Shown here piece by piece: positions 11,361-58,492 of a DNA stretch of 64,000 nucleotides (positions within the stretch are counted from its first letter, which is position 1; each line of letters opens with the position of its first letter). The stretch is taken from positions 1 to 64,000 of the IMG/VR virus record IMGVR_UViG_3300010885_081999; one strand, 5' to 3'. The stretch comes from a virus. The notes below the pieces were generated by a model. It saw only the letters and a list, made by a program, of their open reading frames with translations, had not been told where the DNA came from and searched no databases. Both the position numbers and the translations under genes were made by a program.

Positions 11361-11777
11361 TCAGATCGACTTGAGGTCCTCTTCGTCTTCAGCTTCTTCA
11401 CGCTTTCGAATCTCCTTCTCGATCGTCCTGATCTCTGGCGAGAACTTTGCAGACAGTGCCTTCTTCGTCAACGACTTTGCCTTTTCGATGTCTCCCTTTG
11501 CACGGGCAGCGATCTTGGGCATCTTGATCCGTGCGAATTTGACGATCTTTTCCTTGGTTTCGTCGGGAAAGTCTATGTCGTAATACAGTTCCATGTCCTC
11601 GATCCACTCCGAAGAGAGGTCGTCTGCAGGACCCGTTCCAGTGAAGAAAGACTTCAGCTTGTCGAGGAAGCCTCGCTTCTTCGTCTTCTTCTCTTCGCTT
11701 TCTTTTTCGTTGCCACGCCAGTAGAACTCCTCGTTGAGGACGGACTTGACGTACTCTTTCAGCAGTCTGTCGTTCAT
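11361..11777 (-). CDS. Tagged hypothetical protein, charged helical
   Basis: 138 residues rich in Lys/Glu. The N-terminus M-N-D-R-L-L-K-E-Y-V-K-S-V-L-N-E-E-F is one of the recurrent amphipathic leaders, with an L-N-E site that would suit a T4-like prohead protease. The rest is predicted helical. It directly follows the metallopeptidase-like gene (1-nt gap). Probably virion-associated; no family recognised. Confidence 0.65.
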   Translation of the reverse strand: MNDRLLKEYVKSVLNEEFYWRGNEKESEEKKTKKRGFLDKLKSFFTGTGPADDLSSEWIEDMELYYDIDFPDETKEKIVKFARIKMPKIAARAKGDIEKAKSLTKKALSAKFSPEIRTIEKEIRKREEAEDEEDLKSI

Positions 11778-11778
11778 G

Positions 11779-12249
11779 TCAGGCCTTCTTCGCTTCCTTG
11801 AGCTTCTTTATGGTTCCGACGACGTCGATGACTTGACCGGCGGCTCGACGGGCATCGATCTCGAAGGGACTGTCATAATAGGGATCGCTTCCAGGGCAAC
11901 CCAGCTTTATCGCGATGTAGCTGAGAGCATACACGATGGGCTGGAACACACCGAGCCTCATGCACTGTTGGACGTGGCGTAGTTCATGGGTCACGAGGGC
12001 CGACTTCTCGTCGGGCGTCGCGTTGAGAACTACGACGTTTCCGATGGTGTGTCCTCCCCATGCCTTCCATGCGGAGTTGAGCCAAGCAGGCGACTTGTCA
12101 CGGAGGACCTGCCACACCATTGCGTCGCCTATCACACCGTGCCACCTGTACCACCCGACCAGCGTGAACAAACCTGCATAGGCAAGACCAGGAAGCGTCA
12201 CAGGAGATGCCCATGCATAACCCAAGATTTTTTTGACTTTGTCCCACAT
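11779..12249 (-). CDS. Membrane protein with an HExxH motif
   Basis: 156 residues. Residues about 13-30 form a hydrophobic segment (V-T-L-P-G-L-A-Y-A-G-L-F-T-L-V-G), followed by T-H-E-L-R-H-V-Q-Q with a zinc-metallopeptidase H-E-x-x-H, and a second hydrophobic stretch. The H-E-x-x-H-V-Q-Q context is typical of small metallopeptidase-like domains near secretion and toxin systems. A possible role is envelope processing. GGAGG lies 8 nt before the start, and an ATAGTTA promoter on the minus strand at 12303-12309 gives a transcript leader of about 50 nt. Confidence 0.6.
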   Translation of the reverse strand: MWDKVKKILGYAWASPVTLPGLAYAGLFTLVGWYRWHGVIGDAMVWQVLRDKSPAWLNSAWKAWGGHTIGNVVVLNATPDEKSALVTHELRHVQQCMRLGVFQPIVYALSYIAIKLGCPGSDPYYDSPFEIDARRAAGQVIDVVGTIKKLKEAKKA

Positions 12250-12302
12250 GACAGTGTCCTCCGCGAGGCAAATATGATCGAAGTGCCCTCAGGCGTTCTC
12301 AA

Positions 12303-12309
12303 TAACTAT
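12303..12309 (-). promoter_or_regulatory. ATAGTTA promoter for the 12249 operon
   Basis: On the minus strand ATAGTTA lies 53 nt before ATG 12249 and is back to back with the plus-strand ATATTTA at 12321, forming a divergent promoter pair. Confidence 0.5.
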
Positions 12310-12320
12310 GCAGATTCCGC

Positions 12321-12327
12321 ATATTTA
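12321..12327 (+). promoter_or_regulatory. ATATTTA element, near-leaderless start
   Basis: ATATTTA ends 5 nt before ATG 12333 and there is no Shine-Dalgarno. If this is the -10, transcription starts at or next to the start codon. Confidence 0.5.
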
Positions 12328-12332
12328 GAAGC

Positions 12333-12944
12333 ATGAAGATCACCGAGAGCAAACTCCGAGTCATCGTCAGAGAAGAGTATCTCAAGAATTCTGAGGCGGC
12401 AGGATTCACTCCCAACCTCACGGAGGGCATGAGATGGCACCTGACCGAATCAGTTCCGTTCGATAGACCAGTATACCGTGCAGGAACGGAAAAGTACTTC
12501 ACTTTGATCAGGGAGGCACGCAACCTCTACGGCTCCGGAGACTACACACCGATGAGCGACTTCGAGAGAGACCTGCTGGAATCTGACCTCGGTGAGTACG
12601 ACATGTTCGAGGGTGCGATGGTTCCTCTCGACTTTCCGTTCCGCGAAGGTGACCTCACGGAGGCGAAATACAAGGGCAAGGAAGTCGAACTCGGCAAGCC
12701 GAAGCACGGCGAGGGCGGCAAGGCCTACGTCTACGTCAGGGACCCAAAGTCAGGCAACGTGAAGAAGGTGAAGTTCGGTTCGTCGATGCCCGATGCGATG
12801 GGCGACTCAGACGCCGCGAGGAAGAGGCGCAAGTCGTTCGGTGATCGTCACGACTGTGCCAACAAGAAGGACAGGACGAAGCCGGGCTATTGGGCATGCA
12901 GGGCCACCAAGTTCTTCGGTAGGGACATACCCGGTTGGTGGTGA
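12333..12944 (+). CDS. Tagged hypothetical protein with basic Cys-containing C-terminus
   Basis: 203 residues. The leader M-K-I-T-E-S-K-L-R-V-I-V-R-E-E-Y belongs to the shared MKIT...REE tag family. The C-terminal 50 residues are strongly basic with D-C-A-N-K-K-D-R-T-K-P-G-Y-W-A-C and end in G-W-W, possibly a small nucleic-acid- or metal-binding domain. Probably a packaged or structural protein. The next gene starts at its stop. Confidence 0.65.
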   Translation: MKITESKLRVIVREEYLKNSEAAGFTPNLTEGMRWHLTESVPFDRPVYRAGTEKYFTLIREARNLYGSGDYTPMSDFERDLLESDLGEYDMFEGAMVPLDFPFREGDLTEAKYKGKEVELGKPKHGEGGKAYVYVRDPKSGNVKKVKFGSSMPDAMGDSDAARKRRKSFGDRHDCANKKDRTKPGYWACRATKFFGRDIPGWW

Positions 12945-13216
12945 AGTTTCCGTTCGACGAAGAGACTCTCGAGAGCGGTTCGAGACTCCGAACTTTCTCA
13001 AGTGACTCTGCGCTAGAAGAACTGGTTTGGCACAGGGATGCCGACGACAGACTTGTGCGAGTCATCAAGTCGCAGGGCTGGTACATTCAGTTCGAAGATG
13101 AGCTGCCGAGAGAGATGCGGCCTGGTGACGTCTTCTTCATTCCGAAGGAGACGTGGCACCGTGTGATCCGCAAGAGTGACAGCCCACTCGTCGTCGAAAT
13201 CGAAAGTCAGTCGTAA
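12941..13216 (+). CDS. Small cupin protein
   Basis: About 91 residues from the GTG at 12941, which overlaps the previous stop (GTGA). The sequence W-H-R-D-A-D-D-R, then P-G-D-V-F-F-I-P-K-E-T-W-H-R-V is a minimal cupin barrel with metal-ligand-like His. Similar tiny cupins occur in marine phages, without known function. Translationally coupled to the tagged gene upstream. Converges on the gene ending at 13207. Confidence 0.65.
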   Translation: MKFPFDEETLESGSRLRTFSSDSALEELVWHRDADDRLVRVIKSQGWYIQFEDELPREMRPGDVFFIPKETWHRVIRKSDSPLVVEIESQS

Positions 13217-13884
13217 TACGACGTCGCCGGTCGGCGCTTCTGCGGAGCGATCTTTCTCGCGCCGTGGTCGAACATCCACTGCGCGAGCTCGGGAAGGCCT
13301 GCCACGCCCGTTCCCCTGAGGTCAGTCGCCATGATGACGCCTGTGATTCCGCGACCTGCGGGGTCGTAGTTGAATGCGATGCTGTCCTTGCGGAGTCGAA
13401 TGGAGAACGCCTTCACGGAGTTGAGAGACGGCGTGCCGTAGGTGGTCACTCTGCCCAGCATCTTGAGGATCTTCTCGTCCTTCTTCGTGAGATTCTCTCC
13501 ACCGTCGACCTGCTTGATCTTCGCGAGAGCGGCCTTATGAGCCCATGCAGTGCCACCGGCACGAGAATCGTACTCAGGGACGCGGACGAGCTCGCCAGGA
13601 GCGAAGGTGGACGTCATGTCTGCGGCCCAGATCCACACTCCCGGACTACCTGGCTTGGGTCCTGCGCCGGGCTCCCACGACATGTCGTCTGGAAAGTCTG
13701 CGAGGTCTCCTGCGTCTTCGATCTCGTCGAAGAAGACTTCTTCACCGCCGTACTCGGGTTCTTCGACCGAGACGTACACGTCGCCTTCTTGAGGCATGGC
13801 ACCAGGGTTTCCCGCTGTGGCTTCGGTTACGCGAGCGACTTCTTCTTTGATGATGCGTCGAAGGTGATCGATGGAGATTCTCAT
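13207..13884 (-). CDS. Tagged hypothetical protein (MRISIDHLRRIIKEE leader)
   Basis: 225 residues. The first 16 form the classic shared leader ending in I-I-K-E-E. It is followed by an Ala/Thr linker, an acidic region (residues about 30-60), and a globular domain with no family I recognise. No Shine-Dalgarno is present; ATAGTTA ends 6 nt before the start. Probably virion-packaged and trimmed after I-K-E. Confidence 0.7.
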   Translation of the reverse strand: MRISIDHLRRIIKEEVARVTEATAGNPGAMPQEGDVYVSVEEPEYGGEEVFFDEIEDAGDLADFPDDMSWEPGAGPKPGSPGVWIWAADMTSTFAPGELVRVPEYDSRAGGTAWAHKAALAKIKQVDGGENLTKKDEKILKMLGRVTTYGTPSLNSVKAFSIRLRKDSIAFNYDPAGRGITGVIMATDLRGTGVAGLPELAQWMFDHGARKIAPQKRRPATSYYD

Positions 13885-18351: not shown

Positions 18352-19464
18352 TCAGAGTGCCTTTATCTTTTGGATCACAGCACGATAGTCCTTGATGTAC
18401 TGCGCTTCTTCGGGTATGCCGGCCTTGAGGACCTTGTCGACGTGATCCTCGAGGCTCTTGATGTAGAACTCCTTGGAAGCCTTTCGCGAGCCGTCGACGA
18501 GCATCTTCTCCGCCTTGGTTTTCTCCTGAGGTGGGAGCTTCTTGATCTCCTCGACCTTCGCCTTCGCGTCGCCTTTCAACTTGCTTCCTGCGGCCTTCTC
18601 GATGTCCTCGATCGTCTTCACCTTCTTGAGGACGTTCTCGGCCTGTGAGAAGACGTCGGTCAGCGTCTTCCTGTAGACCTTCGTCGCATCGGCCTGCATC
18701 TTCTTGACCTGCGGTGCATCGAGGGCCTTCGCGAGGAACTTCTTGCTGGAGAGTATCTTTGCGGGAGTGAACTTCTTCTTGTCGTCTGGCTCGTCGTCTT
18801 CTCTCAGCTGTGACTCTCCCCACATGGAGCGAGGACCGTCCTTCTTCTTGGAGGGCTTGGATCCGCCTCTGCCGTCGTCGCCCAGTGCCATCCTACCGGC
18901 GGCCTCCAGCTTCGACGTGACGGAGTCGTACAGTTCATCGGAAAAACCACCCGTCACTGCGGATAGAAGCTCCTTGGACACGGCGGCGCTCTTCTTCGTG
19001 GCGACCGCACCGAGGACGAGAGCAGGCGACGCCATGAACGCGAGGAGTCCTGCGTCGGGCGACGCCAGAGCTGCGTCGGTGCGCGCATACACGTCCTTGT
19101 ACTCACCCTTGATCTTCTCGATGTCTTCCTTTTCCTTGTCGAAGACGTCTGCATAGTTGTAGCCGTATATCGGGATCAGCGTGGTGAGTACCGTCTGAAG
19201 GCCGACCCAGAGGACGGTCCTCGCCTTACGGGTGATCTCCTTGGTCTTTCCTACTGCCGTCTTGAAGACGTCGACGAACGGTCCGATGAAGGCATCGTAC
19301 ATGTCGTTGCCGCTGCCGTAATGTGCTCCGCCCATGCCCATGCCCGAATCGTACGAAGAAAATCCTCCGCCGAACATCGCGGGATTGCCGCCAGCCTCAT
19401 CCTCAACGAGGAGGGAATTCCTGACGTATTCACGCAGCAGAATCTCGTCTCTTCTATATCGCAT
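18352..19464 (-). CDS. Tagged large hypothetical protein, probable virion component
   Basis: 370 residues. The leader M-R-Y-R-R-D-E-I-L-L-R-E-Y-V-R-N-S-L-L-V-E-D is the LREYV form of the shared tag with an L-V-E site. A Gly/Met/Ser-rich segment (about 28-50) is followed by two hydrophobic stretches (V-L-W-V-G-L-Q-T-V-L-T-T-L and A-L-V-L-G-A-V-A-T) and a long Lys-rich helical C-terminus. Membrane or capsid-interior association is possible. ATATTTA lies 8 nt before the start. It is divergent from the nucleotidyltransferase gene. Confidence 0.65.
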   Translation of the reverse strand: MRYRRDEILLREYVRNSLLVEDEAGGNPAMFGGGFSSYDSGMGMGGAHYGSGNDMYDAFIGPFVDVFKTAVGKTKEITRKARTVLWVGLQTVLTTLIPIYGYNYADVFDKEKEDIEKIKGEYKDVYARTDAALASPDAGLLAFMASPALVLGAVATKKSAAVSKELLSAVTGGFSDELYDSVTSKLEAAGRMALGDDGRGGSKPSKKKDGPRSMWGESQLREDDEPDDKKKFTPAKILSSKKFLAKALDAPQVKKMQADATKVYRKTLTDVFSQAENVLKKVKTIEDIEKAAGSKLKGDAKAKVEEIKKLPPQEKTKAEKMLVDGSRKASKEFYIKSLEDHVDKVLKAGIPEEAQYIKDYRAVIQKIKAL

Positions 19465-19503: not shown

Positions 19504-20097
19504 ATGAGAAGCATTGGACTCGTCCCCATGGCAGCGAAGCCGTATCACGCAGGTCACGACGGTCTCGTGAGGATCGCAGCGAAGGAGAACGATGAGGTAC
19601 GTCTGTTCGTGTCGCTGCTCGACAGGGTGCGAAAGGGAGAGACTCCCGTATACGGAGTCGACATGAAGAAGGTCTGGGACCTCTTCATAGAGCCGTCTCT
19701 GCCTGGAAACGTCGAGGTCCAGTACGTCAACGTTCCCGTCCAGGAAGTGTATCGATCGATCGAGGAAGCTGAAGGAGACGAAGACGTCCTGTTCAGGATC
19801 TATTCTGACGACGAGGACATCTTGAAGTACAGCGACGCGTCGCTGTCTAAGTCTGCGCCAAAGCTGTTCGCCAACGGACAGATCGAAAGACGCGGAGTGG
19901 CGAGATCAGAGACGGTTCCCGTCAGCGGAACAGAGATGAGGGGCTACATCGGGTCAGGTGACGTAGAGAAGTTCATCGAGTTGCTTCCTCCCGCCGTGAG
20001 GAAGAACGGTCAAGAGATCTACGATCTCCTCAGCAGACGCCCGATGGGTGAGAGCCTGCTGAGGAGATATGTCGGATTGTGCTTATCAGCGTCTTGA
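19504..20097 (+). CDS. Cytidylyltransferase-like nucleotidyltransferase
   Basis: 197 residues. G-L-V-P-M-A-A-K-P-Y-H-A-G-H-D contains the H-x-G-H motif of the nucleotidylyltransferase superfamily (NMNAT, cytidylyltransferases), and R-S-E-T-V-P-V-S-G-T-E-M-R sits where the second nucleotide-binding S/T-x-x-x-R element is expected. Substrate cannot be set from sequence; NAD metabolism or activation of a small alcohol phosphate are possible. Isolated on the plus strand among minus-strand genes, it overlaps the convergent gene at 20086 by 12 nt. Confidence 0.75.
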   Translation: MRSIGLVPMAAKPYHAGHDGLVRIAAKENDEVRLFVSLLDRVRKGETPVYGVDMKKVWDLFIEPSLPGNVEVQYVNVPVQEVYRSIEEAEGDEDVLFRIYSDDEDILKYSDASLSKSAPKLFANGQIERRGVARSETVPVSGTEMRGYIGSGDVEKFIELLPPAVRKNGQEIYDLLSRRPMGESLLRRYVGLCLSAS

Positions 20098-21366
20098 CGT
20101 CTTCTTTGCAGACAGGGCGTTTGCTACTACACTCTGTACTTTCTTCAGGGTTGTTGCAGCACTTCCTCCTGGTGCTTTGGCCATGGGACCTGCATGAACT
20201 TTGTACTGTATCACCAAATTAGTGCCTTGAAGTGAAACTGCTTCTGGCATGCTGTCTTTCACTGCACTAATGCTCTTCAGCTCTGGGGGGGTCAGGCTGA
20301 TTCTTGACGTTGATCCTCCCGTACCAGGTCTAAACATCAGAATAGGCTTGTGGGAAGTGTCACTTGGGATGTTATTTTTGGCATCGCGTGCGTAAAGATG
20401 ACCATTTTCTCCAACGTCAAGCTTGTACAAGTTTCCAGCTTTCTTGAGTGTCATGCCAGCGATGTCAGAAACTATGATGAAAGCACATTCGTCAGCAGGA
20501 TCTCCCTTGGGTCCATAGATGAATACTTCTGCAATCTTTGGGTCGTCAATTTCTGCATACCAGCCAGAGACATAAGACGTCTCGCCTGCAACTAACATGT
20601 CCTTGTATGTCGCTGTGGATTCTTCGATAAACTTCTGAGTGAAGTCAATCAGTTTCTTTTCGTTCTTGTCGCCAGAACCTGATGCATTCAAATTCTGAAG
20701 CAGTCTAGTCACTGCTGAGTAAGTCTGAGGGGGCATGTTGCCTTTTTGTACCTTGTGTGATATGCCCGTGCCTTCTATTTGGTTTCCAGACGTATCGACC
20801 AGAATAAAGTCCGAGTGTGCTGCCTTGTTCTCGTTCTTTATGATTCCGCCGACGCCGGAGAAATTCTTGCCAGCAATTTGAACAGTTATCGGCTTTCTAC
20901 CGCCTTGCGTAGCTTCGTCAAATGAAGCCTGCAAGTTTTGAAGAGCTCCTGCCTCTGCATGCAATTCTTCGCCCTTAGAGACGAGCCAGCTGTATTTCGC
21001 GCCTGGCGTCACACTCATACTGTAGACGTTAGGTGATTTATCAAATTCAGCGTTTCTCTGGGGGCGCTTACCCTTAGCCAAACTATTGGCTGCACCTATC
21101 TCATCAGGTGTAAAGTCTCTGTTCAGCAAATTGATGTTGAGCTCAGAACCATCTGGTGTCAAAACACCCACCAGACGTCTGTCTAAGTCATCTGGGTTGA
21201 CCTTGACTCTCTTTTTTGTCAATGCTGCTGTGATTGCAGTCTTGACAGGGACAGGTGCGTTGGAAAACTTCACACCAAAGTAAGGTCGCTCTGGCCGAAT
21301 AGTGCCTTCTAGCAGTGGCCTAAGACCCAAAGCTAGCTTCAGATACTCTCTCAATAGTTTGCTCAT
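20086..21366 (-). CDS. Tagged hypothetical protein, AT-richer than neighbours
   Basis: 426 residues. The leader M-S-K-L-L-R-E-Y-L-K-L-A-L-G-L-R-P-L-L-E-G is a shared tag ending in L-L-E. The body has alternating strands and Gly-rich turns (A-G-K-N-F-S-G-V-G-G) and no family I recognise. Base and codon use look less GC-biased than the genes on either side, as for 54008-55180, which may mean later acquisition. ATGA overlap with the ligase-fold gene suggests co-expression. Confidence 0.65.
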   Translation of the reverse strand: MSKLLREYLKLALGLRPLLEGTIRPERPYFGVKFSNAPVPVKTAITAALTKKRVKVNPDDLDRRLVGVLTPDGSELNINLLNRDFTPDEIGAANSLAKGKRPQRNAEFDKSPNVYSMSVTPGAKYSWLVSKGEELHAEAGALQNLQASFDEATQGGRKPITVQIAGKNFSGVGGIIKNENKAAHSDFILVDTSGNQIEGTGISHKVQKGNMPPQTYSAVTRLLQNLNASGSGDKNEKKLIDFTQKFIEESTATYKDMLVAGETSYVSGWYAEIDDPKIAEVFIYGPKGDPADECAFIIVSDIAGMTLKKAGNLYKLDVGENGHLYARDAKNNIPSDTSHKPILMFRPGTGGSTSRISLTPPELKSISAVKDSMPEAVSLQGTNLVIQYKVHAGPMAKAPGGSAATTLKKVQSVVANALSAKKTSRR

Positions 21367-22757: not shown

Positions 22758-22764
22758 TAACTAT
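22758..22764 (-). promoter_or_regulatory. ATAGTTA element before the ligase-fold gene
   Basis: Minus-strand ATAGTTA overlaps the stop codon of the gene at 22761 and is followed by an AT-rich leader of about 130 nt before ATG 22628. Confidence 0.5.
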
Positions 22765-23027
22765 TTCTGCTTCTCGTTGATCTGATTCTTCTTCTTCGCG
22801 GACTGAAGTTCCTTGCGGAGGTGGTTGTACACGTTGCGGTAGTGTCCCCTCTTCTCGGAGCCTTGAGGATACTTGTCGCGCCAATAGGCTGCGTCAGAGC
22901 AACGTGCCTCGAGATCGGCCACGTGGTCGTCCGAGCCCCACTCGGATGTGCGATCCCCGCTGAGAAGGGCCTGTTTCATTTTTCGCTCTATGATGAGCCT
23001 GACGTACGTCTCAATCAGCTTTTCCAT
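22761..23027 (-). CDS. Small tagged basic protein, 88 aa
   Basis: The leader M-E-K-L-I-E-T-Y-V-R-L-I-I-E-R-K fits the shared tag with an I-I-E site. The rest is hydrophilic and helical with clustered Asp/His/Trp (W-G-S-D-D-H-V-A-D-L) and a Lys-rich tail. Its start overlaps the end of 23011-23211. Function unknown; probably virion-associated. Confidence 0.55.
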   Translation of the reverse strand: MEKLIETYVRLIIERKMKQALLSGDRTSEWGSDDHVADLEARCSDAAYWRDKYPQGSEKRGHYRNVYNHLRKELQSAKKKNQINEKQK

Positions 23028-25409: not shown

Positions 25410-26282
25410 TTACTCCAGGGGATCGATGACCTTTTGACCCGACTTGCGCGCCTTTGAGAGCGACTTGTCGAGGAACTCTCGGAAGCCGTCGAGGCCTGCG
25501 ACGATGTTCGGGTGGTCCTTCATCAACTGGACGTCCGCGGACGTGAGCTCACCGGACTTGCGAAGAAAGTCGATGTAGTCGTTCATCGCGGTGAGGGTGA
25601 GGATCTCTGCCTCGTCGGAATCCATCGTCATCACGAACTTCGCCTTCTCGAGTGCCCTCTGGACTGCCTGGCGGGCGCCTGGCACTCCTGCATATCCGAG
25701 CTCCTTTGCGATCTCTTCGAATGTCGCTTCCTCGTCGCTTGCCATCGTATAGCCGCGCTTCGTCGACTTGATCGCGCCTGTGCCCTTGCATGCCTTGCAG
25801 TCCTTGCCGTCAGGCATGATTCCTTCGCCCTCGCAGGCCTCACACTCTTGATAACCTGCACGAACGCCAGACCCGATGGATCCAGCGAGGCCTGCAGAAG
25901 CGAGGTCGTTGTAGGAAGCCTCTCGAAGCATCTTTCTCACAGCGAGACGGATCGTCTCTTCAACCTTCTTGTCCTTGTTCATCTCTTTGTCCTCTTCTTT
26001 CATGTCTTCGACGACGTCTGTGACGGCAGAGTAGAAAGATTCTGCGTCGTCGTCCGAAATGCTATCTATGAGGGTCGATAAAGCCGAACGAAGTTCCATT
26101 CGGTTTTTCGGCCTGAAGTTGGGATTGCCCGGATCTGTCTCTGCAGCAGAGGGATCCACGACAGGCGACACACCTACGGGAGCCGTCGATAGGTCTCCGG
26201 TCGACTGCCAACCCATGCCCGGCGTCGTGATCATCTCGCGGATGTATTCGCGGACGGCGATGTCGCTGACGACGAGCTTCAT
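25410..26282 (-). CDS. Tagged protein with DnaJ-type zinc finger and HTH-like segment
   Basis: 290 residues from ATG 26282. The leader M-K-L-V-V-S-D-I-A-V-R-E-Y-I-R-E-M is of the shared type. Around residue 160 two C-x-x-C-x-G-x-G repeats (C-E-A-C-E-G-E-G and C-K-A-C-K-G-T-G) form half of a DnaJ zinc-binding domain, used in chaperones for substrate binding. Then T-F-E-E-I-A-K-E-L-G-Y-A-G-V-P-G-A-R-Q is sigma-region-4/HTH-like. This combination, with a virion-type leader, is unusual; role unknown. Shares an ATGA overlap with the holin-like gene. Confidence 0.65.
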   Translation of the reverse strand: MKLVVSDIAVREYIREMITTPGMGWQSTGDLSTAPVGVSPVVDPSAAETDPGNPNFRPKNRMELRSALSTLIDSISDDDAESFYSAVTDVVEDMKEEDKEMNKDKKVEETIRLAVRKMLREASYNDLASAGLAGSIGSGVRAGYQECEACEGEGIMPDGKDCKACKGTGAIKSTKRGYTMASDEEATFEEIAKELGYAGVPGARQAVQRALEKAKFVMTMDSDEAEILTLTAMNDYIDFLRKSGELTSADVQLMKDHPNIVAGLDGFREFLDKSLSKARKSGQKVIDPLE

Positions 26283-27859: not shown

Positions 27860-28148
27860 CTTCGGTGCCTTCCAACAGATTGTACAACGTCTCGCTGTCG
27901 AGTTCACCGATGTGAAGGTGACGATTCCTGTTCGTCTTCTCTAGCGTGGCGATCAGCTTCTTCTTTGCCACTCTCTGGAGGAGACGCTCTGCCTTTGGAC
28001 TCTCAGACAACACCATGTCGGCAGCCTCCTGAAAGAGATCCTGCATGGTAATGCCGTACCTGAAGAGCTTCTCTCTGAGGGCGGCATGAGACTCCTTCGT
28101 CAATTTCACGTGAACACTCTTCCTTCCGAAGAAGAGGTCGTGTCTCAT
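27834..28148 (-). CDS. RHH-like DNA-binding protein
   Basis: 104 residues. After a basic start, S-V-H-V-K-L-T-K-E-S-H-A-A-L-R-E-K-L (strand then helix) followed by a second helix resembles a ribbon-helix-helix repressor fold. The remaining Lys/Arg-rich region could also contact nucleic acid. GGAGGCGG lies before the start. It may be a regulator or a DNA-condensing protein. Confidence 0.5.
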   Translation of the reverse strand: MRHDLFFGRKSVHVKLTKESHAALREKLFRYGITMQDLFQEAADMVLSESPKAERLLQRVAKKKLIATLEKTNRNRHLHIGELDSETLYNLLEGTEDGKDNTEE

Positions 28149-28720
28149 GCACCGCCTCCGCCGGCTGGGCCTGCGGCCGCGGCCTTCGGTGCCTGGAACT
28201 CCGTCTCGTCTTCCTTCTCAGACTGCGAGACTCCGATCTCGACGCCGTAGGACTCGAGTAGTTCCTCCTTGAACGTCTCCACTGCAGACTTGTCGTAGTT
28301 CTTTGCGAGGTAATTGGACGCCCTGCGGAGGATCGTGTTGCGGATCTCGAGGAGGTTGTCGTAGTTGTCGACGAGGCGCATCACGTCAGTGACGAAAGAT
28401 CCGACGTCGATGTCGTCGGAGGAGAGCTTCTCTGGCTCTGCGTCCTCCTTCTCCTCGTCTCCCTTCTCTTCGTCTTTGTCGTCCTCTTTCTCGTCTTCTT
28501 CCTCGTCAGCCTCGACGAGGAATCTCCTCGTCATCATACGAAAGTTGAGGCCTTCGTTCTTCGCATTCTTTGCCTCTGCCTCGTACTCCGACAGATACTT
28601 GTCGATCTGAGCATCGAGAGAGTCCTCACCCTTCTCTTTCTCAGGCTCAGCAGCCTCGACGATTCTTGAGGTGCTTCCTCTTCGAAGGGATCGAGCCAGC
28701 TCCTTCAGCAGGGAAGTCAT
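28145..28720 (-). CDS. Acidic scaffold-like tagged protein
   Basis: 191 residues from ATG 28720, which overlaps the superoxide dismutase stop. The N-terminus has S-L-L-K-E-L-A-R-S-L-R-R, then S-R-I-V-E-A, and later R-F-L-V-E-A: two (I/L)-V-E-A sites that match T4 prohead protease specificity. A long Glu/Asp/Lys block (residues 72-100) and an Ala/Gly tail complete it. Prohead core or internal protein is the best guess. Confidence 0.55.
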   Translation of the reverse strand: MTSLLKELARSLRRGSTSRIVEAAEPEKEKGEDSLDAQIDKYLSEYEAEAKNAKNEGLNFRMMTRRFLVEADEEEDEKEDDKDEEKGDEEKEDAEPEKLSSDDIDVGSFVTDVMRLVDNYDNLLEIRNTILRRASNYLAKNYDKSAVETFKEELLESYGVEIGVSQSEKEDETEFQAPKAAAAGPAGGGGA

Positions 28721-29457
28721 CACTTCACCACCTGGGCCATCGCTTCTGCCTTCTTGAAGCGGTCCTCAATGACCGACCAGTTGAACTCTCTCATCTGCGA
28801 AATGAGGTAGGACTTGGGATCATTGAGATAGTCCTTGTAGTACGCGTGCTCCCACATGTCGACGACGACGAGGGGATAGAAGCCCATCGGGACGCTGCCT
28901 GCATGGTCGTCTATCATGAAGTTGACGTACTTCTTCAGGAAGAGGTGGTAGCCACAGACTGCCCAACCGCCACGTGATGCGAGGGCACACGCCATGAAAT
29001 CCCTCTGCCAGTCGTCGAACGTCCCGAAGTCACGCTGTAGCCTGAGGAAGGCGAGAGAATCCATCACCACCTCGCTGTGCGGATCGAAGCAGTTTGCGAA
29101 GTACAGCTCGTGGAGCCACACGGCGTTGAGGTTCCACGTCTCGTCGAGCTTCAGCGTCCTAAACTGAGAGTGGCGATGATTGACGTCCGATCTCTCTGCA
29201 GTGTCGAGCTCCGCCGACACCTTGTTGAGGGACTCGACGTAGTTCTTGTACTTCTCGATGTGCGCTGACTTCGTCTTCTGGGAGACGAATTCCGAGACCT
29301 GCTTGAACTGCTTCGGCTCGGCAACGTATGACTCGTTCAAAGACTCGTCGGAGGGTAGCTTCGCAGTCTCCTTGACGAGATGTGACTGGATGGTTCTCTT
29401 GATGATACCGTCGACGTCGATGCCGGCGAGAGGATGCTTCTTGTCAATCGATTTCAT
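28720..29457 (-). CDS. Fe/Mn superoxide dismutase family protein
   Basis: 245 residues. C-terminal hallmark D-M-W-E-H-A-Y-Y-K-D-Y supplies the Asp and His metal ligands, W-L-H-E-L-Y-F-A-N-C supplies the second His, and A-H-I-E-K-Y-K-N-Y-V-E-S-L-N resembles the first-helix His region, although the spacing is one residue short. An extra N-terminal region of about 55 residues is not found in cellular enzymes. It may be a true dismutase or a structural protein with this fold. Shine-Dalgarno GGAG before the start. It lies among virion-type genes. Confidence 0.75.
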   Translation of the reverse strand: MKSIDKKHPLAGIDVDGIIKRTIQSHLVKETAKLPSDESLNESYVAEPKQFKQVSEFVSQKTKSAHIEKYKNYVESLNKVSAELDTAERSDVNHRHSQFRTLKLDETWNLNAVWLHELYFANCFDPHSEVVMDSLAFLRLQRDFGTFDDWQRDFMACALASRGGWAVCGYHLFLKKYVNFMIDDHAGSVPMGFYPLVVVDMWEHAYYKDYLNDPKSYLISQMREFNWSVIEDRFKKAEAMAQVVK

Positions 29458-45152: not shown

Positions 45153-45458
45153 ATGAGAAACGTCCGAAACATCGCGAAGATCCTTCAGGAGAGATTCGGT
45201 GACCCGATAGGAAGCTATGCAGGAGACGCACCCGTCGGTGTGAGAGACGAAGTTTCCGTCTGTCCACACTGCGGAATGATGCCGGTCGGCGGTCGATGTG
45301 GATGTTCTGAGGACTGTGGATGCGGAGCACCTTCGGGCGAATGCAGCTGCGGCATGAAGACAGAGGGCGCCGACGTGACGGACGAGGGCCTCTCGACGTG
45401 CGACGAATGCGGAATGCTCGAGGTCGAAGGCGGGTGCGGATGCACCCACGAGATGTGA
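45153..45458 (+). CDS. Cys-rich zinc-binding protein with tag-like leader
   Basis: 101 residues with 14 Cys. N-terminus M-R-N-V-R-N-I-A-K-I-L-Q-E-R-F is tag-like, with an L-Q-E site. Then C-P-H-C-G-M, a C-x-C-x4-C-x-C cluster (residues 50-56), C-S-C and a second C-x-x-C-G-M with C-G-C. It probably folds around several metal ions. Role unknown; a virion zinc or metal carrier is possible. Starts a two-gene plus-strand unit with 45468. Confidence 0.6.
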   Translation: MRNVRNIAKILQERFGDPIGSYAGDAPVGVRDEVSVCPHCGMMPVGGRCGCSEDCGCGAPSGECSCGMKTEGADVTDEGLSTCDECGMLEVEGGCGCTHEM

Positions 45459-46101: not shown

Positions 46102-46764
46102 TCAGAGCATCGCGAGAGCAGACTGTAGAGTGGTTCTGTCCACCTTTCCAGCAAGCTGGTCGCCGACGTACTCCTTGAACACCGGATCGCTCACGTCATC
46201 GCATCCCAAATCGGGGCAATGTCCTTCGTAGTTGCGAATGATGTAGTCAACAAGCTTGACTGGGTCGGCAGGTATAACGTCCATCGACCGTCTACGAGGA
46301 CCGCCGCCGTCGTGTTCGGCAACGAAGCCCCAATCGCCGCTCTTCCATGCCGCGAACTCCTCTTGGGTGATGCGAGCGTGGCCCTCTTTCAACGACTTCG
46401 CCTTGCGCTTGCGAGACTCGCCCATTGGTGCAGCGGGCATCGAAACCGACGGCTTGTCGTAAGCACGAAGCTTCTCGTCACCCTCAAGGTAATCCTTGAC
46501 GTGCTCCAGGTCGGTGTGAGCAGAGGCCACGAGGTCCTGCACCCAAGCAGGAAGCTGGTCTCCCATCTCGATGAGACCGCAGATGGTCTCGGCCATGTCC
46601 TTGACGTCTGACATGCGAGACTTCACCATGTAACCCTCGTCGTCCATCGGGTGACCGGACTCAAAACCGTGGAGGAAGCGCTGGGGATCCTTGCCTCCGG
46701 CAGGCATCATGGACTCGACTTCTTCCTTGATGATCTTGCGTAGTTGTGTTGCTGTGAGCTTCAT
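46102..46764 (-). CDS. Tagged hypothetical protein (MKLTATQLRKIIKEE leader)
   Basis: 220 residues. Shared leader with an I-I-K-E-E end, then a Met/Gly/Lys-rich linker. A second segment K-S-L-K-E-G-H-A-R-I-T-Q-E-E-F-A-A-W-K-S-G-D-W precedes a C-terminal domain with C-P-D-L-G-C-D-D. Last gene of a five-gene unit beginning at 49182. AAAGGA before the start. Confidence 0.65.
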   Translation of the reverse strand: MKLTATQLRKIIKEEVESMMPAGGKDPQRFLHGFESGHPMDDEGYMVKSRMSDVKDMAETICGLIEMGDQLPAWVQDLVASAHTDLEHVKDYLEGDEKLRAYDKPSVSMPAAPMGESRKRKAKSLKEGHARITQEEFAAWKSGDWGFVAEHDGGGPRRRSMDVIPADPVKLVDYIIRNYEGHCPDLGCDDVSDPVFKEYVGDQLAGKVDRTTLQSALAML

Positions 46765-46776: not shown

Positions 46777-47235
46777 TTACTTCTTCCTTGTTGCCTTGAA
46801 ATCCGCAGTCGCCTTGCCTGTGGGTTGGAATTTCTGACCGAAGCCGGCCTTCCACAGCATGCCTGTGGCCGTCTCGGCGTAGTAGAAGTCGCCGTCCCTG
46901 AAGAACTTCACGAGCTTGTTCTTCTTTGCCTCTGCAGGAGTCGTCCTCGTCGCACCGAATGCCTGCTCCGCGGGCACCGGTTGGAGCCTCTGACCCAGAG
47001 GAGTCGTCGCGACGTACTCATCGCGACGATTCTTGCGTAGCGTCTCGGCAGCTCGGGCTGCGGCCACGACGAGGTCAAGTTGCTCGTCGTCGATATCATC
47101 GAGAGAAGATACACCAAAGAGGCTGAGAAGCGGCGTCTCGTCGACTCTCGCGCCGTATTTGTCCTTGATGACCTCAGTGATAGAAGTCATTTCTTCTTTG
47201 ATGATCCTGCGAAGTTGTGTTGCTGTGAGTTTCAT
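46777..47235 (-). CDS. Tagged hypothetical protein (MKLTATQLRRIIKEE leader)
   Basis: 152 residues from ATG 47235, 2 nt after the previous stop. The first 15 residues are nearly identical to those of the next gene. The C-terminal part (D-G-D-F-Y-Y-A-E-T-A-T-G-M-L-W) is a small beta domain, and the extreme tail is basic. Function unknown, probably packaged. Confidence 0.65.
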   Translation of the reverse strand: MKLTATQLRRIIKEEMTSITEVIKDKYGARVDETPLLSLFGVSSLDDIDDEQLDLVVAAARAAETLRKNRRDEYVATTPLGQRLQPVPAEQAFGATRTTPAEAKKNKLVKFFRDGDFYYAETATGMLWKAGFGQKFQPTGKATADFKATRKK

Positions 47236-47237
47236 CG

Positions 47238-47483: not shown

Positions 47484-48034
47484 TGCGGTAGCACCCTTTG
47501 CTTCAGTAGATATACGTGTCCTTCGTGCTTGTCCTCGATGCCCTGTAGCATGTTGTCGAGGCCACGCGTCATCGTGCCGCACTCCTTAAGGAGCTCGGCG
47601 AGGTGGGACATCACCTTCAAGAAGTTCATCTCGGCGAGATACGACCGCTTCGCGAGCTCGGTGGGCTGCGGGATGGTCGACGTCATGCCGTATCCCTGGA
47701 CGAGTTTCATGAGCTGTGAAGTGACGAGGACGAGGTCCACACACGCGGTGGAGCCGAGACCGATCGACTTCTCGGCGACTGTGTCGACGTCCTCGACTGT
47801 CGCCTCGTGGATGCGCTGAAAGAGGAGGTGATCACCGTAGAAAGGATCACCCTTCGTGATCCAGTGGTGGTTCTGGTGCACCGCCGCGAGGAACTTGAGG
47901 TGGACGAGAGCCACCGAGAGCTGTGCATAGGGCGTGGATCCCCACTGTGCGACCATGTTGTCGGTCATGATGTCGAGGTTCGGCTCGACGACGATCGCCA
48001 TCTCGAGAGTCTCTGAAAGCCTTCTCTTTGTCAT
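47480..48034 (-). CDS. Dps/ferritin-like protein
   Basis: 184 residues. H-H-W-I-T-K-G-D-P-F-Y-G-D-H-L-L-F near residue 58 and the following H-E-A-T-V-E-D-V-D-T-V-A-E-K match the Dps ferroxidase region (H-x11-D-x14-E type). Dps shells bind DNA and store iron, protecting DNA from peroxide. In a phage it could shield or condense DNA. The downstream gene is tagged but Dps itself is not. TGATG overlap with 48034-49182. Confidence 0.75.
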   Translation of the reverse strand: MTKRRLSETLEMAIVVEPNLDIMTDNMVAQWGSTPYAQLSVALVHLKFLAAVHQNHHWITKGDPFYGDHLLFQRIHEATVEDVDTVAEKSIGLGSTACVDLVLVTSQLMKLVQGYGMTSTIPQPTELAKRSYLAEMNFLKVMSHLAELLKECGTMTRGLDNMLQGIEDKHEGHVYLLKQRVLPQ

Positions 48035-49182
48035 CACTTCAGCTCCAAGTTAAAGCCAACGAGGTCCACGCCAAGGGGATGAGGTCCCCACGTGATCCTG
48101 TACGGTTCGCCACGCAGCGACTGCTGGTTGTTCCAATGCGACACATAAGCGTCGAGAGCCTTCTCGGCTTTCGCATCGAAGCCACCCGGAACGGATGCCT
48201 TGACGGGCACGAGAGTCTCGGAGTTTCGGCCCTCGCCGATCCGATACTTCTTGATGCCTGCTGGAACCGTCGACTTGCGGACGGAGAATATCTTCTCCGC
48301 CTTCTCGATGTACTCTGAGGACGAGAGCGACGCCTCGAGGAGGTCTGCGACGGGATTCGCTGGTACTTCGATGACGGGCATCACGGCCTCGTCGAGGTGT
48401 GCCTCGGACCGAAGCCGGCGGACGATCGACATCAGCGATCCTTCACCGAGGACCTCCTTGTCGCGGTCCTCGATGCACTTGTATATCGCCTTGAGAAGCT
48501 TCTCTCTGTCCACCTTCACGCCTGAAGTGGCGTAGTGCGAGGCGGAGACCCGAGTCGCGAGGATCTCTTCCCACTGTCCCTCCAGGTTGGTGCCGTATTC
48601 CTTGCACAGCTTGTGTGCGAGCCTCTCGTACCAAGTGTCGGGCAGGTCCTTCAGGGGATCGGGAGACTTGACTGCGTCGCCGAGCGGGCCGTCGCCGTAC
48701 ATGTCGAAGGGCTCGTCCTGGGTCTTCGGCGTCGGAAGTCCTCCTTCTGCGAGGCGCTTCTCACGGGCGATCGAACGAAGCTGATCGTCACCGGGATTCA
48801 TCTTGACGGCCTCCTTCACGAGGGAGAGGGGGAGGCGGCGTGCAGCGGCACATCTCACGGAAGACGCTGCGTCTTCGAGGAGCCTGGCTGCGTGTCTCTC
48901 TGGAAGGAGACGGGCTGCGACCTTGCGGAGGACGACGGACTTGCTCGATGCCGCCTCGATGAGGACGGTGGTCTTTATCGCGGTGCGGTTGACTCCTCGT
49001 CCCGTGGACTCGAGGAGGTCGAGTTGTTCGATGGCGGCCTCTGCGACTTTCTCGCAGTTGCTTGAGACCATCACCGGAGGCCCAAATACTCTGAAAAGCT
49101 CGTCGCGAAGTGCGGTTCTGCTCTTCTCTTCTCTAATTGTGTTCTTCGCTACTCGCTGCAGCTCTTGAAGCTTCAGATGCAT
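48034..49182 (-). CDS. Tagged protein with HEAT-like repeats
   Basis: 382 residues. Leader M-H-L-K-L-Q-E-L-Q-R-V-A-K-N-T-I-R-E-E-K has the I-R-E-E end. Residues about 75-110 have repeated V-L-R-K-V-A-A-R-L-L / V-R-C-A-A-A-R-R-L-P units like HEAT/leucine-rich variant repeats, then an extended hydrophilic region. First gene of the unit that includes Dps; AAAGGAG and an upstream ATACTTA lie before the start. Confidence 0.65.
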   Translation of the reverse strand: MHLKLQELQRVAKNTIREEKSRTALRDELFRVFGPPVMVSSNCEKVAEAAIEQLDLLESTGRGVNRTAIKTTVLIEAASSKSVVLRKVAARLLPERHAARLLEDAASSVRCAAARRLPLSLVKEAVKMNPGDDQLRSIAREKRLAEGGLPTPKTQDEPFDMYGDGPLGDAVKSPDPLKDLPDTWYERLAHKLCKEYGTNLEGQWEEILATRVSASHYATSGVKVDREKLLKAIYKCIEDRDKEVLGEGSLMSIVRRLRSEAHLDEAVMPVIEVPANPVADLLEASLSSSEYIEKAEKIFSVRKSTVPAGIKKYRIGEGRNSETLVPVKASVPGGFDAKAEKALDAYVSHWNNQQSLRGEPYRITWGPHPLGVDLVGFNLELK

Positions 49183-49209: not shown

Positions 49210-49230
49210 CCGACAAGGAGTAAATCATAA

Positions 49231-49419
49231 TCACTTAGAGGACAATTTCATGTCCTTTGCCCATGCCCTGATCTTCTTCTTCGCCCAGTTGGGGACATAG
49301 ACGCTGTCCTCTTCGAAGGCAGGATCGTCCATGAGCTCCATGGTATAGGTCTCGTCAGGCTGTGATCCTCCGAAGACCTTCCTCACTGTCTCGCGTAGTT
49401 GTCCTATCGTCATCCTCAT
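49231..49419 (-). CDS. Small tagged protein (MRMTIGQLRETVRK leader)
   Basis: 62 residues. The leader M-R-M-T-I-G-Q-L-R-E-T-V-R-K-V-F is followed by an acidic centre and a basic end (W-A-K-K-K-I-R-A-W-A-K). No Shine-Dalgarno; ATACTTA ends 6 nt before ATG 49419, within the end of the HNH gene. The ATG also overlaps the HNH stop, so two modes of expression are possible. Confidence 0.6.
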   Translation of the reverse strand: MRMTIGQLRETVRKVFGGSQPDETYTMELMDDPAFEEDSVYVPNWAKKKIRAWAKDMKLSSK

Positions 49420-54007: not shown

Positions 54008-55180
54008 TCAGGCAGCGATCTTAATCGCGTCCAGATCGTCAAGTGCTGCAAGAATCTTGGCGATGGATCCCTCGTCTGCCTCGGGTCCAACTGCCTTCTT
54101 GACGTCTTCTAGCGCTGCGCCGTATTTTTTCTTGGCTTCTTCGGCAGCTTCTTTGGCCTTTTCGTCGCTCTTGCCTATGTTCTTGAGGTCTACGCCTGCA
54201 TCTTTAGCTGCCTTCTCGATAGCCTCGGGCTTCTTCTCGCCGATCTTCGCAATGACTCCTTCGAGTCCTATGTCGCCGATCTGCTTCTCGAGCTCATCCA
54301 CATTTATCTTCAAGGCTTTGGCAAGGTTTTCTCTGAAGCCGTCGTACATCGCTGTCTTCTGCTGAAGACCCTTGGCAAGGTCTTCTGCCTCTTCTTTCCA
54401 ATTGTGATCGTCTTCTGTCAACAAGCCTCTTCTGCCGCCGAAGCCTGCAAGCTGCTGCCACCTCTCAATGATTCTTTTCCCTCTTTCTTGAGAGGCACCG
54501 ACTTCTTTCGCCGCCTTGAGCAAGTCTTTGGCGTTAGGTCTGAAGATGCCTTCCGCCACAAGATGTCCAGACTTCATCAGCGCTTGGATGACTTGCGAAG
54601 TCAACTTGACATCCGTCCCTGTTTGCTTTGAGATGGATTTAGCAAGAACTTCTGTGGCTTTTTCGGGAGTGACCTTCTTTTCTTCAGCATCAGCAAGTGC
54701 TTTGTCGGGATCTATGTTCGCTGCCTGCGCAGCGCTTCTGACAAGAGCAGGAGTCGCCTGTTCTGGCTTGCCAGGATCGATTGCTGTGCCTGGCTTTGGC
54801 CCGCCAGATTCACCCTTGTCTCCGCCCTCGCCGCCTGTGGGCTTCGCAGAAGCGACTGCGGCGGGATCCACGCCGGCACCATCCAGGACTCCTTTGAGGA
54901 ATTCATTCACGACTCCTTCGTCAACGCCTGCTTTTGACGCAACGTCCTTGAGATCCTTCACCGCCTTGGTGATGTTGTCCTTGGCAGTGGCGAAGAGCTT
55001 CTGGTTCGCTTTGTCCTTGAAGAGCTTACCAAGATCAGCACCTACTTCCATGCCGCCTCCGAGAAATGCCTTGACCTTGTCAAGGAATCCCAGCTCGAGG
55101 AGCATGTCGTACTGCCTGTTGCTGATATTGCCTTCAAGAAGTTGCGTGTAAAGCTTGTACTTCAGTGCAGCGTTATTCAT
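54008..55180 (-). CDS. Tagged large helical protein, probable virion component
   Basis: 390 residues from ATG 55180 (GAGGA 8 nt upstream). The leader M-N-N-A-A-L-K-Y-K-L-Y-T-Q-L-L-E-G has an L-L-E-G site. Most of the body is helical, Ala/Lys-rich, with a Gly/Pro-rich centre (P-T-G-G-E-G-G-D-K-G-E-S-G-G-P). AT-richer than its neighbours, as for 20086-21366. It is a single-gene unit with its own ATACTTA promoter and terminator, so it is probably made in high amount late. No family recognised. Confidence 0.65.
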   Translation of the reverse strand: MNNAALKYKLYTQLLEGNISNRQYDMLLELGFLDKVKAFLGGGMEVGADLGKLFKDKANQKLFATAKDNITKAVKDLKDVASKAGVDEGVVNEFLKGVLDGAGVDPAAVASAKPTGGEGGDKGESGGPKPGTAIDPGKPEQATPALVRSAAQAANIDPDKALADAEEKKVTPEKATEVLAKSISKQTGTDVKLTSQVIQALMKSGHLVAEGIFRPNAKDLLKAAKEVGASQERGKRIIERWQQLAGFGGRRGLLTEDDHNWKEEAEDLAKGLQQKTAMYDGFRENLAKALKINVDELEKQIGDIGLEGVIAKIGEKKPEAIEKAAKDAGVDLKNIGKSDEKAKEAAEEAKKKYGAALEDVKKAVGPEADEGSIAKILAALDDLDAIKIAA

Positions 55181-57400: not shown

Positions 57401-57406
57401 GTTCCG

Positions 57407-57412
57407 ATCTTA
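57407..57412 (-). promoter_or_regulatory. sigma70-like promoter of thyX-tmk, leaderless
   Basis: Minus-strand TTGAAC, 17 nt, TAAGAT, 6 nt, ATG 57400. Arms TTCCG and CGGAA flank the -10. Confidence 0.55.
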
Positions 57413-57456
57413 CACCGGAATGCGCCAAAGTTCAAACGTGAGGTGTCTTCTCAGTC

Positions 57457-57738
57457 TCAGAGAACGGCGTCGATCGCATGCATCATGATGCTGAAAATTG
57501 CCTCTGAGCGGACGTCGCCTCGTTCTGCCTTCTCAGCGTATGCCTGCATGAAGGCTTCTTCGAGACCCGGAAGCGAAAATACCTTGGGAGCATCCGTCGT
57601 CGTCGTGTAGAGGTCCCAGTAGTGTTTCGCCTCACGTGAGATTCGAGGATCAACGGGAGGTGCCACGTCGGCTTCGCCTAGAGCCTTCTGAGCTTCTTCT
57701 CTGATTATCCTGCGGAGTTGTGTCGTAGTGATCTTCAT
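57457..57738 (-). CDS. Small tagged protein (MKITTTQLRRIIREE leader)
   Basis: 93 residues. The first 15 residues are almost identical to those of 47238-47483. The rest is helical with an Ala-rich C-terminus (A-Y-A-E-K-A-E-R-G-D). GGAG lies just before the start, with ATAGTTA 11 nt upstream of the ATG. A packaged small protein is likely. Confidence 0.65.
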   Translation of the reverse strand: MKITTTQLRRIIREEAQKALGEADVAPPVDPRISREAKHYWDLYTTTTDAPKVFSLPGLEEAFMQAYAEKAERGDVRSEAIFSIMMHAIDAVL

Positions 57739-57749
57739 GACGCTTCTCC

Positions 57750-57756
57750 TAACTAT
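57750..57756 (-). promoter_or_regulatory. ATAGTTA element before a tagged gene
   Basis: Minus-strand ATAGTTA, 11 nt before ATG 57738; overlaps the end of the gene at 57753. Confidence 0.5.
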
Positions 57757-58046
57757 GTGCTCCTGATGAATTGTAGCATCTTGTCCTCGAGAACTTTCTT
57801 GATGTCTTCTTCAATCTCTTCGAGGACTTCGTTCGCTGCAGCGAGCATCTCTCTCTGACGTACCGAATCCGATGCTGTTATCTGTATGTGACGTTTGAGG
57901 TGACGCTTGAGTCCCTCGGCTGCGTCGGATGCCACCTGCGACAGAGCGAAGTCAGGTATGCCACGAGCATAGTCTTCCGCAAGGACAGTTCGAATTTCTT
58001 CGACGACCAAACGCCTCAGTCCTGCCCTCGCGTCTTTCAAGGTCAC
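57753..58046 (-). CDS. Small tagged helical protein
   Basis: 97 residues. Leader M-T-L-K-D-A-R-A-G-L-R-R-L-V-V-E-E-I has the V-V-E-E end. The body is a long helix with a heptad-like E-V-L-E-E-I-E-E-D-I-K-K-V-L. Coupled to 58043-58492 by an ATGA overlap. No function assigned. Confidence 0.6.
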   Translation of the reverse strand: MTLKDARAGLRRLVVEEIRTVLAEDYARGIPDFALSQVASDAAEGLKRHLKRHIQITASDSVRQREMLAAANEVLEEIEEDIKKVLEDKMLQFIRST

Positions 58047-58492
58047 ACCTCTTCAGTGTAGGCGAGCTTGGAGTTGTGGACGAGCAAAGCTATCTGATCG
58101 ACGTATCTCTCAGCAGCTGCCGTGATGTCAGAGACGAGTTCCTGTTGGACTTCCATGACTCCGTCCTGGTCGAAATCCTCCAGGTCGTTGCTGAGGGTCG
58201 TCGGAGACATCTTCTCGACTCCGTACTTCTTCAGGGTGTCGGCAAGGACCTTGTACATGGCCTTGTCGAGGTCCTTCAAGAAGGCCTGCGCCATCTCGAC
58301 AGACTTCTCGCTGACGATCCCCGAGACTTCCATCTCAAAGTTGTCAGGATTCTCTGCTTCGAACATGAGCGTCTCGACGAGACGTGACTGAGACTGCATG
58401 CGATTTCTGGCATGATAGGCAGCAGAGATTTCTTCACGACCCTCGTTGAGGATGTCGGAGATGCTCAAAGCCTGACGTCTTCCTAGTTTCAT
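58043..58492 (-). CDS. Tagged helical protein
   Basis: 149 residues. Leader M-K-L-G-R-R-Q-A-L-S-I-S-D-I-L-N-E-G-R-E-E has an L-N-E-G site. The remainder is acidic and helical. GAAGGAG before the start and ATACTTA 18 nt upstream. First gene of a unit of two or three tagged genes. Confidence 0.6.
   Translation of the reverse strand: MKLGRRQALSISDILNEGREEISAAYHARNRMQSQSRLVETLMFEAENPDNFEMEVSGIVSEKSVEMAQAFLKDLDKAMYKVLADTLKKYGVEKMSPTTLSNDLEDFDQDGVMEVQQELVSDITAAAERYVDQIALLVHNSKLAYTEEV

Follow-up and report, generated by a model that had tools for sequence, protein, structure and literature searches.

A short N-terminal leader on many unrelated proteins of uncultured T4-related myophages as a probable capsid-targeting propeptide

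In bacteriophage T4, the internal proteins IPI, IPII and IPIII as well as Alt carry a short N-terminal propeptide of 10 residues, the capsid-targeting sequence (CTS), which is processed by the prohead protease gp21; this protease cleaves after L/I-x-E, an Asp at P1 blocks processing, and the core proteins of T4 are cut to pieces (PMC9026906). In the giant phages phiKZ and SPN3US, head proteins bear N-terminal propeptides cut by a gp21-related protease, and a massive load of internal proteins is ejected (PMC5694885). Here we report on a short N-terminal leader on many proteins of the IMG/VR virus record IMGVR_UViG_3300010885_081999 (103,725 bp), the first 64 kb of which (positions 1 to 64,000) are hereafter the window. 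A first-pass annotation of this window had proposed that more than 20 otherwise unrelated proteins share a recurrent N-terminal peptide, possibly a capsid-targeting signal, in two main forms and a number of looser cases; the two main forms stand, the looser cases do not stand by their peptide alone.

We interpret the leader, with fair confidence, as a capsid-targeting propeptide. Among T4-related, uncultured myophages of one lineage, an N-terminal segment of the type MKIT-x-x-QL(K/R)-x-IIKEE-L-x-x-V-L-x-E would recruit late-made proteins into the assembling prohead core; the gp21-type S77 protease of the phage would cut after L-x-E, at about residue 21-22, freeing the body inside the head, where it would travel with the DNA and, by analogy with the T4 internal proteins, probably be ejected into the host. 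Binding to the core, cleavage, presence in virions, injection and the functions of the cargo proteins are inferred. Support for capsid targeting, as originally suggested, comes from a protease in the relatives, slots held in the head gene cluster, a match with the cleavage site of the capsid proteins, avoidance of L-x-E in the bodies and a shared promoter-like motif.

The first form (form 1) has the consensus MKITKxQL(K/R)(Q/R)IIKEELxxVLxE and is helix-like and charged. A position-specific scoring matrix (PSSM), trained only on other viral contigs and applied to all starts of the contig with a threshold of 8 bits, detected 11 starts, as against 0.0 expected from shuffled N-termini. Seven of them lie inside the window (12333, 13884, 40117, 46764, 47235, 47483, 57738) and are those listed under this form in the first-pass annotation; the search beyond the window, which had been proposed there, added 69957, 87926 (GTG), 103032 and 103399. 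The start at 58046 remains below the threshold with 7.9 bits, and a relative of its body in L038 bears a canonical leader. Each of the 21 starts listed earlier was verified: an ATG (GTG at 58046) opens a reading frame there, with the N-terminus quoted for it.

A degenerate DNA pattern of the leader gave at least 188 matches on at least 120 stretches of IMG/VR, each opening an open frame and often two to six per stretch; when entire contigs are counted and up to 3 mismatches allowed, the window contig contains 8 and the other 33 leader contigs 1-29 each. The pattern is strongly bound to the N-terminus (468 occurrences versus 32 internal ones), and many of the internal occurrences are in-frame fusions of two tagged units. 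Frames with a second, internal leader, mostly with its own Met, are found at L053:365-955, L085:484-1611, L016:10904-11524 and L065:3522-4709. There was no match in 14 large random contigs, and none for the reversed pattern. Neither T4 nor any of seven T4-like isolates has the pattern, the peptides being too short to decide on homology with the T4 CTS. The leader string was not found in the literature searched. A tblastn search of the leader against phage records returned a single weak match, in the uncultured 484-kb phage LR756508, which has 8 leader-pattern genes plus an S77 protease. This protease is matched by two separate segments of a single 576-codon open frame (LR756508.1, 156480-158198), which suggests an in-frame insertion, perhaps an intein. 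A screen of 84,980 bacterial and archaeal genomes found the pattern on no more than five contigs, every one from metagenome bins; 2 of the 4 bins also encode an S77 protease somewhere in the bin. Two of these contigs, NHDW01000006.1 (L376/L380/L381) from a Methylococcaceae bin and PBIO01000025.1 (L377/L379) from a Halobacteriovorax bin, hold many leader genes each; probably both are phage sequences wrongly assigned to these bacterial bins.

The end of the leader has the features of a protease site. Positions of the leader carry several bits of information each, until at residue 23 the value has dropped to about 0.3 bit, the background level. Downstream of the invariant IIKEE, a terminal [LIVM]xE follows in a variable register, with P1 at residue 18, 19, 21 or 22 and almost never at 20. 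Among 387 non-redundant leader proteins, 263 have [LIVM]xE with P1 at 18-23, as compared to 146 ± 6.7 by chance (residues permuted within columns, 2,000 permutations, maximum 168), and in 114, versus 40 ± 5 after shuffling, the motif is followed by A, G or S at P1'; in windows beyond residue 26 there is no excess of [LIVM]xE. Of the 193 sites with P1 at 21 or 22, 140 have Leu at P3 and the others I, V or M ([LIVM] being the residues searched at P3); such a register-tolerant pairing of P3 and P1 is what a site-specific protease would impose. A cut at the invariant I-K-E/E, as assumed in the first-pass annotation, is not favoured by these coupled residues, which point to the L-x-E at residues 18-22, 4-8 residues further on. 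Its statement that nearly all leaders end in (I/L/V)-x-E applies to most form-1 leaders, at residues 18-23, and fails for 12333, 46764 and 87926. The specificity of the protease can be predicted independently from the major capsid proteins: 27 of 27 have L-[KR]-E followed by [ASTQ] at residue 58-61, which aligns, after a gap in the shorter proteins, with the known T4 gp23 site LTE/A at 65/66. The predicted specificity therefore matches the leader end.

Of 42 leader contigs of at least 50 kb, 29 encode a Peptidase_S77 (E between 9e-25 and 2e-37), and none of the 13 longer than 120 kb lacks it, as compared to 2 of 21 random contigs of at least 50 kb; since the co-occurrence is partly shared ancestry, the contigs are not independent and do not represent 29 separate events. 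Contigs of the window's clade were collected by means of the neck protein; of the 9 tested that are longer than 60 kb, 8 encode a gp21-type Peptidase_S77, among them G070, whose neck protein is 84% identical to that of the window. The refuting result proposed in the first-pass annotation, a genome lacking a prohead protease, is not borne out in these relatives. In G070 and L368, TerL is followed by a leader gene, the portal gene, the gene of a conserved 284-residue (HNKKRN) protein, gp21, two leader genes (141 and 81 residues), one further gene, a scaffold-like gene and gp23. In many marine contigs, leader genes immediately precede gp21, in the position that gp67/gp68 have in T4. In the largest contigs, most leader genes are in accessory clusters far from the head genes, which is expected for variable cargo. 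For the window contig itself, gene calls and PHROG scans identified a DNA polymerase, a DnaB-like helicase, a ribonucleotide reductase, a baseplate-hub-like protein and a head-tail-adaptor-like neck protein; judging from N-termini and position, two large proteins at 88.0-94.6 kb are putative tail sheaths and a protein at 87.0-87.5 kb is a putative tail tube. No portal, prohead protease or capsid gene was recognised in the 103.7-kb contig (a Peptidase_S77 search included), which is not evidence of absence because the contig ends before the head genes.

The bodies (residues 28 onward) seem to avoid the site. Of 1,561 residue-pair/spacing combinations, none is more depleted in leader-protein bodies than L-x-E, with a ratio of observed to expected of 0.92 versus 1.39 in other proteins of the same loci (z = -6.4) and an LxE/ExL odds ratio of 0.66 (99.9% bootstrap interval 0.54-0.81); L-x-Q and L-x-D are enriched.

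The second form (LLREYV...LLxE; form 2) probably uses the same route as form 1. A regular expression for this form, which the earlier listed starts 11777, 19464 and 21366 satisfy, matches 31 of 2,782 N-termini of the leader clade versus 0 of 1,357 control N-termini, and is about 37 times rarer at internal positions. In 16 of the 31 cases the protein is the S77 protease itself (e.g. MSKVLLREYYALCEGG), and MNLLREYIRELLTE-type N-termini account for 9, on different proteins encoded by L039, L074 and L111. LL-rich segments similar to form 2 open T4 gp21 and gp23 (QLLIETW, ELLNKWKPLLEG); together with its presence on the protease, this makes form 2 a plausible second head-core signal.

Many of these genes have a putative late promoter in common, ATA[CTG]TTA (ATACTTA, ATATTTA or ATAGTTA), with 31 occurrences on both strands of the contig. 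It is located up to 50 nucleotides upstream of 23 gene starts versus about 0.8 expected, and precedes both putative sheath genes, the putative tube gene and the neck gene. It was found upstream of 14 of 26 tagged or candidate genes versus 9 of 93 other genes (Fisher p = 5e-6), the signal coming mostly from loose cases (7 of 9, p = 1e-4; form 1, 5 of 12, p = 0.05; form 2, 2 of 5); as the motif, third letter included, was defined on the same contig after inspection, these p-values are somewhat optimistic. In the relatives, a two-letter version of the motif stands before genes far more often than expected (105 versus 5), with scaffold, sheath, tube and neck genes among them. The motif often ends only 5-6 nucleotides before the start codon (12321-12327, 13891-13897, 32508-32514, 49426-49432 and others); if it is a -10 element, the respective mRNAs would be leaderless. 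The tagged and candidate genes of the window are the following:

12333..12944, plus strand: form 1, 203 residues, MKITESKLRVIVREEYLKNSEA; PSSM 25.4 bits; ATATTTA at 12321-12327
13207..13884, minus strand: form 1, 225 residues, MRISIDHLRRIIKEEVARVTE, then A; PSSM 22.0 bits; ATAGTTA at 13891-13897
39515..40117, minus strand: form 1, 200 residues, MKITVSQLRRIIKEEVQKVALRE, then G; PSSM 39.7 bits; ATATTTA at 40150-40156
46102..46764, minus strand: form 1, 220 residues, MKLTATQLRKIIKEEVESMMPAGG; PSSM 36.2 bits; body relative in L116 also with leader
46777..47235, minus strand: form 1, 152 residues, MKLTATQLRRIIKEEMTSITE, then V; PSSM 37.0 bits
47238..47483, minus strand: form 1, 81 residues, MKITTTQLRRIIKEELQKVLLE, then H; PSSM 41.9 bits, the highest of the contig
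57457..57738, minus strand: form 1, 93 residues, MKITTTQLRRIIREEAQKALGE, then A; PSSM 36.3 bits; ATAGTTA at 57750-57756
57753..58046, minus strand: form-1-like, GTG start, 97 residues, DARAGLRRLVVEEIRTVLAE, then D; PSSM 7.9 bits; relative L038_1 with canonical MKLKAKDLRRIIKEE
11361..11777, minus strand: form 2 by N-terminus and regular expression, 138 residues, MNDRLLKEYVKSVLNE, then E
18352..19464, minus strand: form 2 by regular expression, 370 residues, MRYRRDEILLREYVRNSLLVE, then D; ATATTTA at 19473-19479
20086..21366, minus strand: form 2 by N-terminus and regular expression, 426 residues, MSKLLREYLKLALGLRPLLE, then G
22761..23027, minus strand: possible form 2, failing the regular expression, 88 residues, MEKLIETYVRLIIE, then R
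25410..26282, minus strand: loose case, 290 residues, weak DnaJ-type zinc-finger match; neither LxE site nor late-promoter motif
28145..28720, minus strand: loose case, 191 residues, MTSLLKELARSLRRGSTSRIVE, then A; downstream of the superoxide dismutase gene, in the group of 29725
29444..29725, minus strand: loose case, 93 residues, MKKLEEADIIRIMREE; ATATTTA at 29736-29742
31732..32502, minus strand: loose case, 256 residues, MTLNELRRMIRASVKRQIAE, then A; ATACTTA at 32508-32514
45153..45458, plus strand: loose case, Cys-rich, 101 residues, MRNVRNIAKILQE, then R; ATATTTA at 45140-45146
48034..49182, minus strand: loose case, 382 residues, MHLKLQELQRVAKNTIREE; ATACTTA at 49203-49209
49231..49419, minus strand: loose case, 62 residues, MRMTIGQLRETVRKVF; PSSM 3.0 bits; ATACTTA at 49426-49432; opens the run from 49419 to 46102
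54008..55180, minus strand: loose case, 390 residues, MNNAALKYKLYTQLLE, then G; ATACTTA at 55202-55208
58043..58492, minus strand: loose case, 149 residues, MKLGRRQALSISDILNE, then G; ATACTTA at 58511-58517

About one third of any proteins would contain [LI]xE in the first 30 residues (a rough estimate from residue frequencies), so the N-termini of the loose cases cannot be separated from chance, the start at 49419 reaching 3 bits and that at 26282 having no LxE. Seven of the nine (29725, 32502, 45153, 49182, 49419, 55180, 58492) have the promoter motif, which was not used in choosing them; about half of the earlier list of more than 20 is thus held by the promoter and not by the peptide.

The bodies behind the leaders indeed differ, as the first-pass annotation had stated: 20 of 26 have no relative among 5,479 genes compared, and the bodies of the 387 leader proteins form 305 families, 270 of them singletons. 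Pfam gave essentially no matches for the tagged bodies of the window, and no relatives of the 32502 and 19464 bodies were found in IMG/VR; IMG/VR relatives of the 40117 protein align, with one exception, mainly over the leader (residues 1-19 to 1-29). The leader is kept in orthologues of 103032, 103399 and 87926 and in body relatives of 46764 and 58046. Recognisable bodies include an L,D-transpeptidase, a Zeta-toxin-like P-loop protein and an AAA_33 kinase-like protein that starts immediately after the leader. An iron/manganese superoxide dismutase (28720-29457, minus strand) has a long N-terminal extension with LNE/S and two loosely tagged neighbours, and a Dps/ferritin-like protein (47480-48037, minus strand; weak Pfam match, best PDB E 1e-4) is encoded within the tagged run 46102-49419; that these two proteins are packaged is speculation.

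Elsewhere in the window, DNA of collagen-like Gly-Pro-Thr repeats opens the contig (1-100, plus strand). At 3042-7469 (plus strand), a yeaH(DUF444)-like gene is followed by a gene which we take to be SpoVR-like and by a PrkA-like AAA gene, resembling the bacterial prkA-yeaH-spoVR operon; the PrkA-like gene matches Thermus phage serine kinases. The PHROG DNA polymerase family is found in two genes (37639-39405 and 34425-36752, minus strand), which flank a 306-residue gene with HNH/endonuclease-like matches, and possibly a homing endonuclease is inserted in the polymerase gene (34425-39405). Two genes at 30743-31699 and 32518-33513 (minus strand) both belong to the PHROG nucleotide-sugar epimerase family, with a loosely tagged gene in between.

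Several observations weigh against a capsid-targeting propeptide. No [LIVM]xE is present at residues 18-23 in 32% of the leaders. A protease was not seen in 13 of the 42 leader contigs, all of them at most 112 kb long and possibly fragments, nor in the window contig. The nearest isolates tested have other N-termini, and neither virion proteomics nor cleavage data were found for any member of the lineage. The mature major capsid proteins also meet the protease, and no LxE depletion is seen in them (observed/expected 1.53); avoidance is not a universal outcome of exposure, which renders this argument supportive, not decisive. Within a locus, finally, pairs of leaders have a codon identity of 0.61 versus 0.43 expected from codon usage, and part of their similarity may be recent spread of DNA. 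The last point would suit a recently duplicated DNA cassette, i.e. a translation enhancer or recombination module with no role at the protein level. This we regard as highly improbable: even very divergent contigs retain the leader at the amino-acid level and differ by synonymous changes, and the conserved LxE end shifts register with P3 paired to P1. The cassette is partly kept for the codon likeness within loci, but fails on protein-level conservation and the coupling of the site.

A helix-like, charged leader might also serve, uncut, for docking to some other phage structure (replication compartment, host RNA polymerase, membrane), LxE being the end of an amphipathic helix. The location of most leader genes in accessory clusters distant from the head genes in large genomes would agree with this, as would an AlphaFold helix at residues 5-22 of the 103032 protein, predicted with very low confidence (predicted local distance difference test 38, not usable). 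Docking seems improbable to us, however, as the LxE coupling changes register among proteins with A or G next to it, LxE is avoided in the bodies, leader genes hold conserved slots in the head cluster, and the late-promoter-like motif is common to tagged, tail and neck genes. Alternatively, the leader could mark scaffold-type proteins of the prohead core, which shape the head and are digested or expelled instead of being retained and injected. Small conserved leader genes flank gp21 as gp67/gp68 do in T4, whose core proteins are cleaved into fragments, and for these conserved genes a core function may hold. As a general explanation it is quite improbable: the scaffold-like gp22 proteins are LxE-rich (observed/expected 1.80), as expected of a protein cut to pieces, whereas the tagged bodies are LxE-poor (0.95), and the diversity of bodies is huge (305 families in 387 proteins), L,D-transpeptidase and P-loop kinase-like domains included.

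A capsid-targeting propeptide could be extended to a lineage-wide cargo code, with dozens of tagged effectors packaged and injected per virion, tags spread by recombination and bodies evolving away from the protease site; we give this slightly better than even chances. Among these effectors would be enzymes (L,D-transpeptidase, for instance, and kinase-like proteins) and possibly also the superoxide dismutase and the Dps-like protein. To our knowledge, proteins injected by phages are known for few isolates only. If the leader indeed targets capsids, packaged and probably injected proteins of uncultured phages, hundreds of them and nearly all of unknown function, could be read straight from metagenomic sequence; it would also add, beside the T4 signal, a different natural signal for the packaging of proteins, and show clearly how proteins evolve away from cleavage by the protease of their own virus. 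Should the cargo code hold, the injected proteome of hundreds of uncultured phages would become readable from sequence.

Compared to the described systems, the propeptides of phiKZ and SPN3US share with the leader their N-terminal position and the gp21-related protease, and would share the ejected internal load, but are mostly longer than 100 residues with A/S-x-E sites, as opposed to about 22 residues and L-x-E here (PMC5694885). The leader genes adjoining gp21 in many contigs occupy the slot of T4 gp67/gp68, but phmmer gave no match for them at E <= 1e-3 among the matches listed. Flavobacterium phage immuto and the cyanophages S-RSM4 and S-PM2 have the T4-like order gp20, gp21, gp23 and an S77 protease that shares 40-43% identity with the one from a marine leader contig, but their whole genomes contain no leader genes of the MKIT type. 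Closest is the T4 CTS, likewise a short N-terminal propeptide on unrelated proteins with an (L/I)-x-E site, an S77 protease encoded in the same order relative to portal and gp23, and cargo that varies between phages (PMC9026906). The leader differs from it in sequence, in length (about 22 residues versus 10), in the number of tagged genes (up to 29 detected by pattern per contig versus three IPs and Alt in T4) and in its strong conservation across a wide lineage, also in fixed slots of the head cluster. Judged from these sequence comparisons, the system most likely works like the T4 CTS, of which it would be a greatly expanded variant.

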